From contig SUTL01000003.1 of the NCBI GenBank assembly GCA_015062925.1, positions 1 through 52,505 on the forward strand: a stretch of DNA of 52,505 nucleotides, in the 5' to 3' direction. How positions within the stretch are numbered: position 1 is the first letter of the stretch; each line of letters opens with the position of its first letter. Made by a program: the position numbers and the translations under genes. A model generated the notes under the pieces. It was not told the origin of the DNA. It did not search any database and saw only the letters and a program-made list of their open reading frames with translations. This document shows positions 1 through 4,748 of this stretch, piece after piece. This DNA is from Methanobrevibacter thaueri. Its GTDB lineage: Archaea; Methanobacteriota; Methanobacteria; Methanobacteriales; Methanobacteriaceae.

Positions 1-491
1 ATTTTTTTGAGGGGTTTTTCAGTAGTTTTTTTGTTATATCTATTTTAATTGAATTTTTATAAAATAGACTAATTTTGTTTTATTTCTATTTTTTCATGTT
101 TTAGTACTGTTTTTTTCCCTTTTTTTATAATATGGGATGATGTATTGAGATTTTGTTTTTCAATACTTTCATTTTTAACTTCCATGATTTTAGTTAAGTG
201 TATATTCATATATATTTTTTTGTGATTTTTTGTGTTTTTCATTATTCTGTTTTTTTGCATTTTTTCAAAAAATACAAAAGGTTTATATATTATGAGAATT
301 ATATAATTTATTCACCGTCCGACATATTGTAATTTTTCAAAAAATATATTAAAAATAGTAAACTTTAAATACTATAAGGTATTAAAGTATACTTGCAAAA
401 ATGCACTTTCACTAAAAAAATACATAAAAAACCTTTAGAAAAAAAATTTCTAAAAAAAATAAACCATTGTTAAAAAAAGAGGTACGAAAAT
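1..491. other. AT-rich intergenic region with promoter of the first gene
   Basis: No convincing gene is seen here. The region is almost entirely A and T with long T runs. TATA-like boxes occur near 282-291 and 364-371 and would fit transcription towards the gene at 492. A small inverted repeat (AATAC at 368-372, GTATT at 379-383) sits just downstream of the second box. The only open frame, on the minus strand at 69-260, is Lys/Asn-rich and lacks a ribosome binding site. Confidence 0.5.
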
Positions 492-836
492 ATGAATTCA
501 AAAGTAAATTGGAGCGAAAAAGTAAAAAAACTCGACAAAAAAATAAGAAATGAAATGGGAATGGAATCAGAAAACGAAACAAACCACATACTAATAAAAG
601 TACAAACAAAATCCGCTGAACCAATAGAACCAGCATTCATCATAGACGAAGACGAAACATTCCTAGATTTATTTGTACTATCCCCACACAACGGAGGAAT
701 TACAAGCACAGCAGTATTAAAAAACAACATCCAAAGCATAGGAGTAATAGGGGGAGTATCCACAGAAAAATTAGAATCCTCCGAAACAATTGACCCAACA
801 CCATTAATTGATGAAACATCAAACCTATACCAATAG
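492..836 (+). CDS. Hypothetical protein, first gene of HsdS/HsdM-like operon
   Basis: A 114-residue acidic, soluble protein that I do not recognise. It has no signal peptide, membrane segment or cysteine motif. The start is supported by AGAGGT eight bases before the ATG. Residues 1-30 are charged and probably helical; the middle (about 33-85) looks like an alpha/beta fold with hydrophobic strands; the C-terminus is polar. It reads in the same direction as the HsdS-like and HsdM-like genes, 89 bases upstream of them, and shares their A/C-rich coding strand. A hairpin in the gap may lower downstream expression. A link to the HsdS/HsdM-like pair is inferred from position only. Confidence 0.6.
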   Translation: MNSKVNWSEKVKKLDKKIRNEMGMESENETNHILIKVQTKSAEPIEPAFIIDEDETFLDLFVLSPHNGGITSTAVLKNNIQSIGVIGGVSTEKLESSETIDPTPLIDETSNLYQ

Positions 837-837
837 A

Positions 838-864
838 TAGTTTTGGAACAAAAAACCAAAACTA
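838..864 (+). terminator. Intercistronic hairpin after first gene
   Basis: TAGTTTTGG (838-846) and CCAAAACTA (856-864) form a perfect 9-bp stem with a 9-base A-rich loop, starting two bases after the stop codon at 834-836. No strong T run follows, so it could be an attenuator or RNA-processing site rather than a full terminator. Confidence 0.4.
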
Positions 865-925
865 ATGCTCAATTCAACCACAATTATAAAAAAATAAATG
901 ACAATAAAATATAAGGGATAAAAAA

Positions 926-1486
926 ATGCAAAAAATATCATTAGGAAGTATTGCAGAAATACTATCAGGCCTATCATACAGACGCTATATTAACGAAAAC
1001 GGAATTCAATTCAAAATCATAGTACAAAGATCAATAAAAAAAGACGGTCAAATATCAGATTTTGAAGAAATATCACTAAAAGACAACATCAAAGACAGAT
1101 ATTTCACACAAAAAAACGACGTCCTAATGAAAATGACCTACCCATATAATGTAGTATGCGTTAAAGAAGAAGGATTAATAATAAGTGACAGAATAGCAAT
1201 AATAAGACTGAAAAAAGAATATGATCCAGAATTTATCGCACACCTACTAACCAACACCCATATTAAAAAACAACTCCACGAACTCACAGGTCCTGGAAAA
1301 ATGCCACACATCTCACTAAAAGAAATAAAACAATTAGAACTCAAAATCCCAGATTTAAAAACACAAAAAAAATATGGTGAACTTCTAAACACAATAAACG
1401 ATAAAATTATCCAGGACATACGCCAAATCAAATACGACAGACAACTTAAAGAAGCAATACTAAACAACCTATGGGATGATAAATAA
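926..1486 (+). CDS. HsdS-like protein with a single target-recognition domain
   Basis: 186 residues, about half of a normal type I specificity subunit (around 400). The N-terminus (Q-K-I-S-L-G-S-I-A-E-I-L-S-G) is the usual start of a type I target-recognition domain. The stretch LTGPGKMPHISLKEIKQLELKIPDL (residues about 119-143, split here as LTGPGKMPHIS and LKEIKQLELKIPDL) is the typical end of such a domain, followed by a helical conserved region (about 148-183). Single-domain S subunits can dimerise to recognise DNA. The HsdM-like gene starts immediately after its stop codon, with the ribosome binding site GGGATGAT inside this gene, so the two are translationally linked. The S-before-M order and the absence of an HsdR gene nearby are unusual. 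Confidence 0.75.
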   Translation: MQKISLGSIAEILSGLSYRRYINENGIQFKIIVQRSIKKDGQISDFEEISLKDNIKDRYFTQKNDVLMKMTYPYNVVCVKEEGLIISDRIAIIRLKKEYDPEFIAHLLTNTHIKKQLHELTGPGKMPHISLKEIKQLELKIPDLKTQKKYGELLNTINDKIIQDIRQIKYDRQLKEAILNNLWDDK

Positions 1487-3145
1487 ATGAAAACCAAATC
1501 CACAAACAAAAAAATTGTAAAAGAATTAATTCTAAAATCAAGAAAAACAAAACTCCCAAAACAAATAGACAACATTATCATCTACACATTCCTATACAAA
1601 TACTGCTCAGACAATATAAAAGACCATTTAGCATTAGAACTAAAAAACAAAGAAGTAACAATCGATGAAGCATATGATAATAAACATTACCAGGAAATTC
1701 TCAGTTACGACATTTTAAAACTATACGGATTCCATATTAAAAACTCAAATGCATTCATCGAAGATGTAATAAACAAGTATTACAATTCACCAAAATTCCT
1801 ATCAGTATTCCTAACAATATTTCCTAAAAACCTGATTTTAAACTCAGAATACTATAATAAAAAATACATAGATTTCCTATTCAAAAAAATATTATTAGGA
1901 ATCAACATTCAAAATATTAACGAAGAAGAAATTGAAAACATAAAAGAAATCATATACCTAATATCAAAACTAGATGTTTTTGAATTACAATTTGAATTTA
2001 GCGAAGTATTCCACACCATATCCTCTTCAAGATTAATGCATGTAAATTCAAATCCGGAATTTATCACACAAATCTTATCAAAAATAGTACTATCCGATAA
2101 ATATGAAATTCAAAACATATATGATCCATTCATGAAAAATGCAGATACATTAATCCAATTAAACGGAGCTGCAGAACAGTATTATGGTAAAGAAAAAAAT
2201 TCAATTAACTACTTATATACAATTGCAAGACTATTTATTAATAATTTCTCATTAAACAATGTATTTTTAAAACAAGAAGATGCAACAGAATCAATTGATA
2301 TTAATGGAGCTGTATTTGATGTAATTTTATCAAGAATCCCGATAACAATTAAAAATTACCATACTTCAAATATAAATCAGAATTTAGAAATAGCAAAAAG
2401 AAATAAAAGCAGTGAACTTAAAAACATCCTATTGAAAGAATTGGAATTGGATAATGATTCATTCACACAAAACATTGAATTAAATCAGGCATTAGAAAAT
2501 TTAGTTGAAAAAATAGGTTTTGAAAATGATTCTGCAGAGGAATTTAACGGAGAATATGAGATTTTAAAAGATAGTGAATTTTTATTTTTAATTAATCTAA
2601 TTGACTCATTAACGCCTGATGGAATAATGGCAATAAGCATTCCTGAAAATTTCCTATTTAAAAATTCACTGGAAACATTAAGAAAATATCTGATAGTAGA
2701 GAAAAATTACATTGACACAATCATACGCATACCAAATGAAATCAACAATATAAAACCTGAAGTAATCATAGTATTTAGAAAAAACAAAACAGATGAAAAT
2801 ATACTATTCATAGACATGTCTTATGACTATACAGTACAAAAAACAAAATCACCTTTCCCATTTTTATCCAGAAAACATTTAAAATTATCAGATGAAACTT
2901 TAATTAAGATGAAAAATGTTTTTTCAAAGAAATTAAAACTACCGAAATATTCTAATCTGGTCACTATTGATGAAATTGAAAATAATTACTTTAACTTATC
3001 TGTTTCACGTTATGTTGATACATTTGAAGGGGATTTTATTTCTTTAGATGAATTGATTATTGAGAAAAAAGATATTGAATCTACTATTAAGGATTTGGAT
3101 TCTAAAATTGATAAAATGATGGATGAATTAAATATTAAATTTTAA
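1487..3145 (+). CDS. HsdM-like N6-adenine methyltransferase homologue with degenerate catalytic motifs
   Basis: 552 residues. The order of blocks matches type I methyltransferase subunits: helical N-terminal domain; a motif I equivalent at 211-221; a YGKEKNSINYLYTIARLFINN-like helix (the usual GQE-N-Tx-LarMNL block); the motif IV position at 277-286; then the DSEFLFLINLIDSL...GIMAISIPENFLF...RKYLI block; and a coiled-coil C-terminus. The key residues are lost. Motif I reads IYDPFMKNADT instead of a DPxxGSG-type glycine loop. Motif IV reads FDVILSRIPI, with R-I-P-I at 283-286 where active enzymes have N-P-P-Y/F. The frame is intact and the rest of the fold is preserved, so this looks like a maintained pseudoenzyme that may bind DNA together with the upstream HsdS-like protein. 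No restriction subunit is in the window. Confidence 0.75.
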   Translation: MKTKSTNKKIVKELILKSRKTKLPKQIDNIIIYTFLYKYCSDNIKDHLALELKNKEVTIDEAYDNKHYQEILSYDILKLYGFHIKNSNAFIEDVINKYYNSPKFLSVFLTIFPKNLILNSEYYNKKYIDFLFKKILLGINIQNINEEEIENIKEIIYLISKLDVFELQFEFSEVFHTISSSRLMHVNSNPEFITQILSKIVLSDKYEIQNIYDPFMKNADTLIQLNGAAEQYYGKEKNSINYLYTIARLFINNFSLNNVFLKQEDATESIDINGAVFDVILSRIPITIKNYHTSNINQNLEIAKRNKSSELKNILLKELELDNDSFTQNIELNQALENLVEKIGFENDSAEEFNGEYEILKDSEFLFLINLIDSLTPDGIMAISIPENFLFKNSLETLRKYLIVEKNYIDTIIRIPNEINNIKPEVIIVFRKNKTDENILFIDMSYDYTVQKTKSPFPFLSRKHLKLSDETLIKMKNVFSKKLKLPKYSNLVTIDEIENNYFNLSVSRYVDTFEGDFISLDELIIEKKDIESTIKDLDSKIDKMMDELNIKF

Positions 3146-3153
3146 AAAAGGAT

Positions 3154-3182
3154 GTTAGTAAGATTAATTATAATCTACTAAC
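3154..3182. terminator. Bidirectional hairpin between convergent genes
   Basis: GTTAGT (3154-3159) with ACTAAC (3177-3182), and AGATTA (3161-3166) with TAATCT (3171-3176), form a 12-bp stem with one bulged A and a 4-base loop. It lies between the convergent HsdM-like gene and gfcR and covers the last gfcR codons, so it could end both transcripts. Confidence 0.45.
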
Positions 3183-3779
3183 TTTAATTAATGATTCAAC
3201 AGGAATTCCCTCTATTTCAGATAATCCTGCTTTATCAATTAATACAGTAACGCATGTTGGTTCACCACCAAGATCTTTTACTGTATGAATAACTTCTTTA
3301 ATTGTTCTTCCACTTGTAATTACGTCGTCAACAATAACTACTTTTTTCCCTTCAACGCTTCCGAAATTAGTACTTATTGTACCTTCATCATCACTGTCTC
3401 CAGCGTCTTTTCTGTGTTTGTGAGGGTGGAAAATAGCTAGGGAAGTGTCCAGTCCACACATGTCTTCAATTGTTTCCGCCATAACTGTTGCAAATGGAAT
3501 TCCGCTCACAGCAACACCTACAACAGTATTAATATCTCCATGTGATAATGCCATGTCACTTAATGCACCAGAAACATAATTTAGACGTGTTGAGTTTCCA
3601 CCAATACTTTTCCAATTAATAGCAAAGTCTACTGGTGCTTCAGCTTTGACTTCAGTTGTTTTTTGAAGGGTTAACCATCTGGCAGTGTCCATACTAACAT
3701 TTAATTCGTCAGCAATTTCTCCAGTGGTGAATCCGTGTTGTCTAAGCTCTTGGGCTTTTGCAATTAATTTTTGTTTCAA
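3168..3779 (-). CDS. gfcR: GfcR-type transcriptional regulator (HTH plus PRTase domain)
   Basis: 203 residues. An N-terminal helix-turn-helix (about 8-35, with [13 protein letters not shown]) is fused to a type I phosphoribosyltransferase domain. The PRPP-binding loop [13 protein letters not shown] is at 147-159. These proteins are often annotated as orotate phosphoribosyltransferase-like; in haloarchaea the family member GfcR is a DNA-binding regulator of sugar metabolism that probably senses a phosphosugar such as PRPP. It is the last gene of the minus-strand run after hemC and the Gfo/Idh oxidoreductase (12 bases downstream of the latter). A regulatory rather than catalytic role is inferred from the HTH. 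Its target genes here are unknown. Confidence 0.8.
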
Positions 3780-3791
3780 TTTATCACCTTT

Positions 3792-4748
3792 TTATATTAG
3801 TTCTTCAAAACTGATTGGTTTATGTTCTTTAGAGGATCTATTTGCAGCAATAACCATTTTAAGAGCATTAAGTCCGTCTTCACCAGTTATTTCTGGTTCT
3901 TCTCCGTTCATCACTGCATTTAAGAATGATTTTAATTCACTTTTAAGTGGTTCTTCATGTTTAATTTGGATATCTTGGGCGAATTTACCGTATACTTCAA
4001 TACTTTGTTTAATATAATCTACTGATATGATTCCTGCAGTTCCGGTAAGTTCTAATTCTCTACGTTTGTATGGTGTTAACCAGTTTACTTCAATAATTCC
4101 TGTGGATTCATTATCAAAGTTAACCATAATTTCTGCATGGTCTTCAAATTCACTGTCGTCAAAACTGCTGTTCATACTACCGTAGACTTGTGTGACTTTT
4201 TCTTCAAATAAATAGTTCATAATGTCTAAATCATGAATAGCTAAGTCGATTGAAACTCCAACGTCTTTTATTCTTGGTGGGAGTGGACCTACTCTTTTTG
4301 CAAATGCTGATACTATGTCTCCTATAACACCATCGTCAATAAGTTCTTTTGCTTTTTGAACTGCTGGGTTGAATCTTTCAACATGTCCTGTTGCAAGCAT
4401 AACTCCTGCTTCTTTTGCTGCAGCAATCATTTCTTCAGCTTCTTCAACAGTAAATGCAATTGGTTTTTCAACTAAAACATGTTTTCCATGATTAATTGCT
4501 TCCATTACTACTGCATGGTGGAATGTGGTTGGAACACAAACACTTACTGCTTCAATATCTGGATTTTCAAGTAGTTCACTGTATTCTGTGTATCCTTTAG
4601 CACCGTATTTTTTTTCTATTTTTTTAAGTGCTCTTTCGCTTACATCACTTACAGCGACTAAATTTGCTTCTTCCATTTTATGGTAAACACGAACATGGTT
4701 TTCACCCATTGCTCCTACTCCGACAACTCCTACATTTATAGTTTTCAA
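3792..4748 (-). CDS. Gfo/Idh/MocA family NAD(P)-dependent sugar oxidoreductase
   Basis: 318 residues. The N-terminal Rossmann motif GVVGVGAMGENHVRVY is at about 7-22. The EKP signature (HVLVEKPIAF, about 89-98) that holds the catalytic lysine is intact, as is the C-terminal dehydrogenase domain with the D-x-A-I-H-D-L-D-I motif near 168-176. The closest family I can suggest is the archaeal UDP-N-acetylglucosamine 3-dehydrogenase group, which would feed amino-sugar or cell-wall polymer synthesis, but the substrate cannot be read from sequence. It lies 14 bases downstream of hemC and 12 bases upstream of gfcR, so it is probably co-transcribed with both. Confidence 0.8.
   Translation of the reverse strand: MKTINVGVVGVGAMGENHVRVYHKMEEANLVAVSDVSERALKKIEKKYGAKGYTEYSELLENPDIEAVSVCVPTTFHHAVVMEAINHGKHVLVEKPIAFTVEEAEEMIAAAKEAGVMLATGHVERFNPAVQKAKELIDDGVIGDIVSAFAKRVGPLPPRIKDVGVSIDLAIHDLDIMNYLFEEKVTQVYGSMNSSFDDSEFEDHAEIMVNFDNESTGIIEVNWLTPYKRRELELTGTAGIISVDYIKQSIEVYGKFAQDIQIKHEEPLKSELKSFLNAVMNGEEPEITGEDGLNALKMVIAANRSSKEHKPISFEELI

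Follow-up and report, generated by a model that had tools for sequence, protein, structure and literature searches.

A half-HsdS/HsdM operon of Methanobacteriaceae with lost methylase motifs and palindromes in its own promoter: a putative autoregulatory DNA-binding complex

Type I restriction enzymes act on sites composed of two half-sites with an N5-N8 gap, and neither the S nor the M subunit binds DNA alone (PMC3874165). In the Type 1½ methyltransferases M.AhdI, M.BsaBI and M.PshAI, which are M2S2 complexes, M is accompanied by a separate half-HsdS (PMC3874165, PMC2878638). Palindromes read by half-HsdS dimers include GAA-N7-TTC (PMC3320862) and ACC-N5-GGT (PMC6158711), and such dimers have been likened to BmrR-like regulators (PMC6158711). 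Restriction systems can also be self-regulated: C proteins act on their own promoter by cooperative binding to repeated operators, and some modification enzymes carrying an N-terminal helix-turn-helix bind and repress the promoter of their own gene (PMC3874152).

The locus studied here is part of a window, i.e. the whole stretch of DNA that was analyzed, of 52,505 nucleotides from Methanobrevibacter thaueri. It consists of a small gene U, a half-HsdS gene (S) and an HsdM-like gene (M), and is related to the Type 1½ methyltransferases but lacks their defining catalytic feature. M and half-S are separate as in those enzymes, and by analogy an assembly of two M and two S with a palindromic bipartite target would be expected; the differences are the loss of motifs I and IV, the conservation of specificity across species and the target-like sites in the promoter. 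With Type I restriction-modification U-S-M shares the HsdM fold and homology, but it has no HsdR at the inspected loci, no NPP(Y/F/W) motif and no HsdS with two target recognition domains (TRDs). As in C-protein-controlled systems tandem operators lie upstream of the first operon gene, but a helix-turn-helix protein and an active restriction or modification enzyme are both missing. Self-repressing modification enzymes are active and read their promoter with the added helix-turn-helix, whereas in U-S-M, where promoter binding is only proposed, the TRD would read and M is dead. Split palindromic targets are a feature shared with BmrR-like homodimeric regulators, which are of unrelated origin; U-S-M would be an HsdS-derived regulator. 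No precedent for a dead HsdM/half-HsdS regulator was found in the open-access literature, which was searched by titles and abstracts.

Active half-HsdS/HsdM systems also occur in the Methanobacteriaceae (e.g. loci L114 and L116). Their S and M are homologous to those of U-S-M and S likewise precedes M, but they keep GSG and NPPF and their S diverges faster than M. At the inspected active loci an HsdR-like gene lies upstream, and L114 has a second HsdS as well. The order of S before M, which had been pointed out in an earlier note on the window, is therefore real but not special.

The U-S-M locus and its distribution

The unit comprises the following features, all on the forward strand:
492-836, +, gene U, 114 aa, without Pfam or NCBIfam match
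839-863, +, U-S hairpin, perfect inverted repeat AGTTTTGG-N9-CCAAAACT
865-884, +, conserved non-coding block between hairpin and S, ATGCTCATTCAACCACCAT in close relatives
926-1486, +, half-HsdS (S), 186 aa, one target recognition domain and a C-terminal helix
1487-3145, +, HsdM pseudo-methylase (M), 552 aa, motifs I and IV lost

According to the open reading frame positions in the window, the S stop codon directly adjoins the M start codon. The three open reading frames of the earlier note (a 114-residue gene, an S-like and an M-like gene) with their positions and the tight S/M coupling held, as did the hairpin preceding S.

Of 139 genomes of the family, 40 contain a full-length M homologue; all 40 belong to the genus of the window and have open frames. 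The other 39 M proteins are 35-64% identical to window M. The order U, S, M is kept in all 40 genomes, and the unit is single-copy and syntenic, occupying one chromosomal place across the genomes compared. By sequence resemblance the left flank holds a nitroreductase-like gene, a 96-aa gene and an MtrA-like gene, and the right flank convergent GfcR-like, dehydrogenase-like and hemC-like genes. At none of the loci inspected was an HsdR-like gene found beside the unit, which has U upstream and the convergent GfcR-like gene downstream; in some of them one to a few other convergent genes precede the GfcR-like gene, none of which is HsdR-like. An extra basic gene, c9 (ca. 130 aa), lies between U and S in 14 of the 40 genomes.

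In a tree of two neighboring genes the S-M carriers fall in one branch (SH-aLRT 99) of 38 genomes, with 34 having U-S-M, three having U only and one having none. G041, the fourth genome with U only, falls outside this branch. G043 has a clean empty site at the locus and G042 lacks the unit. From the neighbor-gene tree and the empty site we infer a single origin followed by a few losses, with vertical inheritance. Viral contigs were searched for S and U relatives, without a match.

The U-S hairpin is conserved in the subclade of the window, with a loop of 7 in relatives. It was rejected as a distributed site, being single-copy in the genome with a loop length unlike that of relatives, and block 865-884 was rejected as a conserved peptide as its reading frame shifts among clades. 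An Rfam search of window positions 1-4000 gave no match. Gene c9 is found for example at L068:9206-9601 and at 13 more loci, and in G027 (L057) a c9 homologue lies close to a U gene and a TFB-like gene.

Lost catalytic motifs in M and conservation of S

M matched Pfam N6_Mtase (2.4e-25), the best stretch being residues 361-514. The top fold match of its AF2 model (pLDDT 85) was HsdM of S. thermophilus (3lkd), and EcoR124I HsdM also scored high. Motif I reads YDPFMKNADT in window M vs. YDPTCGSGSL in active relatives, and motif IV reads SRIPI vs. ANPPF. The catalytic Asn of motif IV is absent from all 40 M proteins, being replaced by Arg (18), Lys (19), Glu (2) or His (1), i.e. by a basic K/R residue in 37. 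Among the other HsdM proteins of the family it is kept in 18 of 20 (NPPF/Y), both exceptions being a pair from genus g8 discussed below. The first glycine of motif I is lost in 38 M proteins and kept in two, while the second is kept in 24; window M has lost both. The PP dipeptide is still present in some orthologues. In the M tree the 40 proteins form one clade with support 100, apart from the 20 canonical HsdM. The alignment thus shows the catalytic residues to be missing throughout one old clade, a loss that goes back to an ancestor shared by dozens of species. Conservation within M is highest in the latter half of the core (361-444) and in 489-519 (66-67%), as compared to 42% for the region of motifs I-IV. 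The C-terminal region, which is expected to contact S, is conserved (NFNLSVSRYVDTFEGEF in the family).

The earlier note had claimed that window M lost the motif I glycines and has RIPI in place of motif IV, and both motifs are altered as described. The check it proposed, whether RIPI is fixed across orthologues, came out negative, only the loss of the Asn being fixed with the replacing residue varying, and the glycine loss extends beyond the window only in part. It had also named two findings that would speak for simple decay. Orthologues with NPPY/F were not found (0/40), so the lost-catalysis reading passed, and there was no frameshift history or rapid loss, dN/dS being far below 1. Its statement that the frames are intact and not an obvious decaying pseudogene held as well.

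S matched Pfam Methylase_S (1.6e-9) as a single domain with one TRD, and is 54-95% identical among genomes. For the seven closest genome pairs dN/dS was 0.02-0.12 for M, 0.04-0.11 for S and 0.02-0.09 for U, which shows that each of the three genes is under purifying selection. Since the 40 M frames are intact and dN/dS is this low, the unit is not decaying. In each of the 780 genome pairs S is better conserved than M, with median identities of 66% for S, 45% for M and 79% for U. The other half-S/M systems of the family show the reverse: M is more conserved than S in 77 of 78 pairs (medians 73% for M and 34% for S), and the lone exception is again the g8 pair. Pairs that share phylogeny are not independent; nonetheless, the reversal is complete. 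The better preservation of S implies that the target sequence is constrained while the methylase body drifts.

Palindromes in the operon promoter

A scan for symmetric sites upstream of U gave two palindromes, which we regard as putative operators, each followed by a TATA-box-like element:
255-277, no strand, operator 1, palindrome TTGCATTTTTTCAAAAAATACAA (GYATTT-N7-AAATRC), 0 mismatches to the consensus
280-291, +, TATA-box-like element of promoter module 1, GGTTTATATATT
327-349, no strand, operator 2, imperfect palindrome TTGTAATTTTTCAAAAAATATAT, 72 bp from operator 1
362-373, +, TATA-box-like element of promoter module 2, ACTTTAAATACT

We searched 67 genomes of the genus for the consensus TTGYATTTTTTnAAAAAATRCAA (= GYATTT-N7-AAATRC), allowing up to 2 mismatches. 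Operator 1 is the sole match in the genome of the window, and matches at the U locus were found in 24 of the 40 S-M genomes. In G068 a match lies next to the MtrA-like gene where the contig breaks off, at the point where U-S-M would come next. Genome-wide there were no matches at ≤2 mismatches in the 26 other genomes of the genus without S-M. The only matches away from the locus were a weak one each in G050, G072 and G075, and one in G094 where a contig ends; the reversed-consensus control gave one match each in five genomes. Strong copies beyond the own operon are thus essentially lacking in this genus-wide scan, so that a wider regulon is not evident.

In the 420 bp preceding U the closest operator match had 0-5 mismatches in all 40 S-M genomes (≤4 in 39). 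In the same region of the four U-only genomes the best match had 6-8 mismatches, equal to background, and in shuffled sequence a match at ≤4 mismatches occurred in 1.1%. Since the consensus was derived from S-M genomes the fit in these is partly circular, but the U-only and genome-wide comparisons are not. The U-only control is made up of four genomes, three of which fall within the S-M clade. Paired operators were present in 37 genomes, spaced 69-72 bp apart in 28 and 80-82 bp in 8, two classes that differ by one helical turn. Behind site 1 there is a TATA-like box in 35 of these 37 genomes, and the count for site 2 is also 35 of 37. These results show that operator presence follows S-M presence and that the sites adjoin both TATA boxes of the operon. 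In archaea a site just upstream of a TATA box can activate, or repress by blocking the BRE. The half-sites, at ca. 6 bp, exceed the 2-5 bp of the Type I enzymes described so far, and the gap contains an A/T tract that is conserved too; both points count against S-M as the factor that binds them.

The half-HsdS/HsdM pair of genus g8 (G013, L118:1118-3517; G012, L119:1317-3840) lies beside a Tsr3-like gene and has no adjacent U. Its HsdM motifs are CNSG vs. CGSG and AKPPF vs. ANPPF. The dN/dS between the two copies was 0.10 for S and 0.39 for M; dS is small, and the direction agrees with the U-S-M identities. Because the M tree places this pair within the canonical systems, its catalytic loss is separate. 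Three GTCATA-N7-TATGAC palindromes lie in its promoter, at spacings of ca. 40 and 34 bp; one mismatch is present in the third. Genome-wide counts of GTCAT-N9-ATGAC at one mismatch were equal to the control, so this case rests on the three clustered sites.

G041 carries an S-M relative at another locus (L063:2585-4663) that branches at the base of the M clade on a long branch. Its S is 48% identical to window S, and its M has an intact motif I with VPPF at motif IV. This may be an evolutionary intermediate in which motif IV was lost before motif I, a reading weakened by the long branch. Operators of the U-S-M type were looked for at this relative and not found. Strong palindromes upstream of active half-S genes were absent except for one hairpin in L113, which is weak evidence because those S genes may sit inside longer operons.

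Proposed role, rival explanations and gene U

On balance we favor the view that S-M, as a complex of the M2S2 type, has been exapted to serve as an autoregulatory factor that binds DNA without methylating it. Binding is inferred here, as there are no binding data. Two half-HsdS and two HsdM would form a complex like that of Type 1½ enzymes in which methylation has been lost. S would dimerize and read the palindrome, and the operator gap of N7, within the Type I range of N5-N8, supports this. Dead M would be kept as a structural DNA clamp for S, because in Type I enzymes S and M each fail to bind DNA on their own. A pair of complexes on the same DNA face may bind the phased operators cooperatively and control U-S-M transcription with either sign. 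U would be the main output and probably acts separately, as it persists alone in some genomes. The comparative data favor the sequence-specific DNA-binding complex without methylation that the earlier note proposed. Of its three suggested roles regulation is now best supported, since the operon's promoter itself contains palindromes of the matching kind. Defense is disfavored by the fixed housekeeping locus, vertical inheritance, conserved specificity and the failure to find S or U relatives in viral contigs. Against regulation it can be said that a large complex governing only itself and U seems costly, and that an unlinked factor could possibly read the operators.

In this last case S-M would be a non-catalytic DNA binder with another job, such as chromosome structure or marking. 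That strong operators are confined to one locus, leaving no wider role of their reader in sight, fits this view, and an A-tract palindrome would also suit ordinary dimeric regulators. This is nevertheless unlikely, since the palindromes disappear with S-M in U-only genomes, S is the sole recognized DNA-recognition protein of the operon and the separate g8 pair has a matching layout. U itself might be the reader, as a functional analogue of restriction-system C proteins; the layout, with U first in the operon and tandem palindromes upstream, is C-protein-like. We consider this very unlikely because U-only genomes have U without palindromes, the g8 pair has operators but no adjacent U, and U is predicted to be an Sm-like barrel rather than a helix-turn-helix protein. 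Little speaks for a defense device in which the dead complex binds and blocks invading DNA, beyond the descent of its parts from a restriction system and its mention in the earlier note. A fixed syntenic locus of single origin between housekeeping genes, specificity that is conserved rather than diversifying and viral contigs without S or U relatives make it very improbable.

M might alternatively be the non-catalytic partner of an active HsdM encoded elsewhere, as in hetero M1M2S enzymes of the PacII type, which do exist (7vru/7vs4; PMC9613975), and some S-M genomes additionally carry an active HsdM. However, several S-M genomes (G046, G055, G056, G064; 93-96% complete) have no other N6_Mtase match, which excludes a trans partner as a general explanation and leaves this option with very little support. 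Methylation through a rearranged active site is hardly more credible, with the caveat that catalysis is judged from sequence: the methyltransferase fold is retained and some orthologues keep PP, but the change of Asn to a basic residue, the loss of the first motif I glycine and the faster drift of M than of S all argue against it. Finally, the absence of an adjacent restriction gene and the loss of S-M in a few species would fit a decaying restriction-modification remnant, an explanation all but excluded by 40 intact frames, low dN/dS and conserved operators.

A bolder form of the exaptation reading, for which the evidence could tip either way, is that half-HsdS/HsdM pairs gave rise at least twice in the Methanobacteriaceae to archaeal transcription factors of a new class, a methylase-inactive M2S2 reading tandem palindromes in its own promoter, which in one clade controls the small Sm-like protein U. 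If the exaptation reading is true, the conversion of a restriction-modification core to a host regulator becomes traceable, with known subunits, a predicted site and an independent parallel, and the DNA clamp for the specificity subunit gives a reason for keeping a dead methylase. The proposed likeness of half-HsdS dimers to homodimeric regulators becomes directly testable, and for orphans annotated as HsdM/HsdS it would be advisable to inspect the catalytic motifs and to look for palindromes in the promoter before counting them as defense systems.

The AF2 model of U (pLDDT 76) has an N-terminal helix, five strands in the order of an Sm-like small barrel and a disordered tail. Foldseek matches were weak (best E 0.03-0.3), with a diheme cytochrome on top and Gemin6, Hfq and RimP among them, so that the Sm-like assignment is a model prediction. 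U ends in Leu-Tyr-Gln (window 825-833) in 39 of 40 S-M genomes and in all four U-only genomes; because the latter retain it, the tail serves something besides S-M. Distant paralogues in the same genomes also end in Leu-Tyr-Gln, and those of genus g9 mostly in Leu-Tyr-X. A hydrophobic-Tyr-X ending was found in 43 of 629 neighboring ORFs (≥100 aa), 32 of these 43 being U or paralogues. The tail resembles the HbYX proteasome-docking motif, and a role in docking is no more than a possible lead; MFG is the ending of the PAN-like ATPase encoded in this genome.

The 96-aa neighbor c5, with C-terminus DLYF, was ruled out as a U paralogue by profile comparison. In G087 (L008:3803-4087) U lacks the last ca. 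22 residues through a local change, and S and M are intact. A distant paralogue, U2 (L136-L145, ca. 97-104 aa), also ends in Leu-Tyr-Gln and has a conserved neighborhood of zinc-ribbon proteins, an HExxH-containing protein and a 97-aa partner, d1. In the U leader (e.g. L019, L024, L029), ca. 20-60 nt before the start, CCAC-loop-GTGG or CACC-loop-GGTG hairpins recur; traces of them remain in some U-only genomes, and control at the RNA level is possible.
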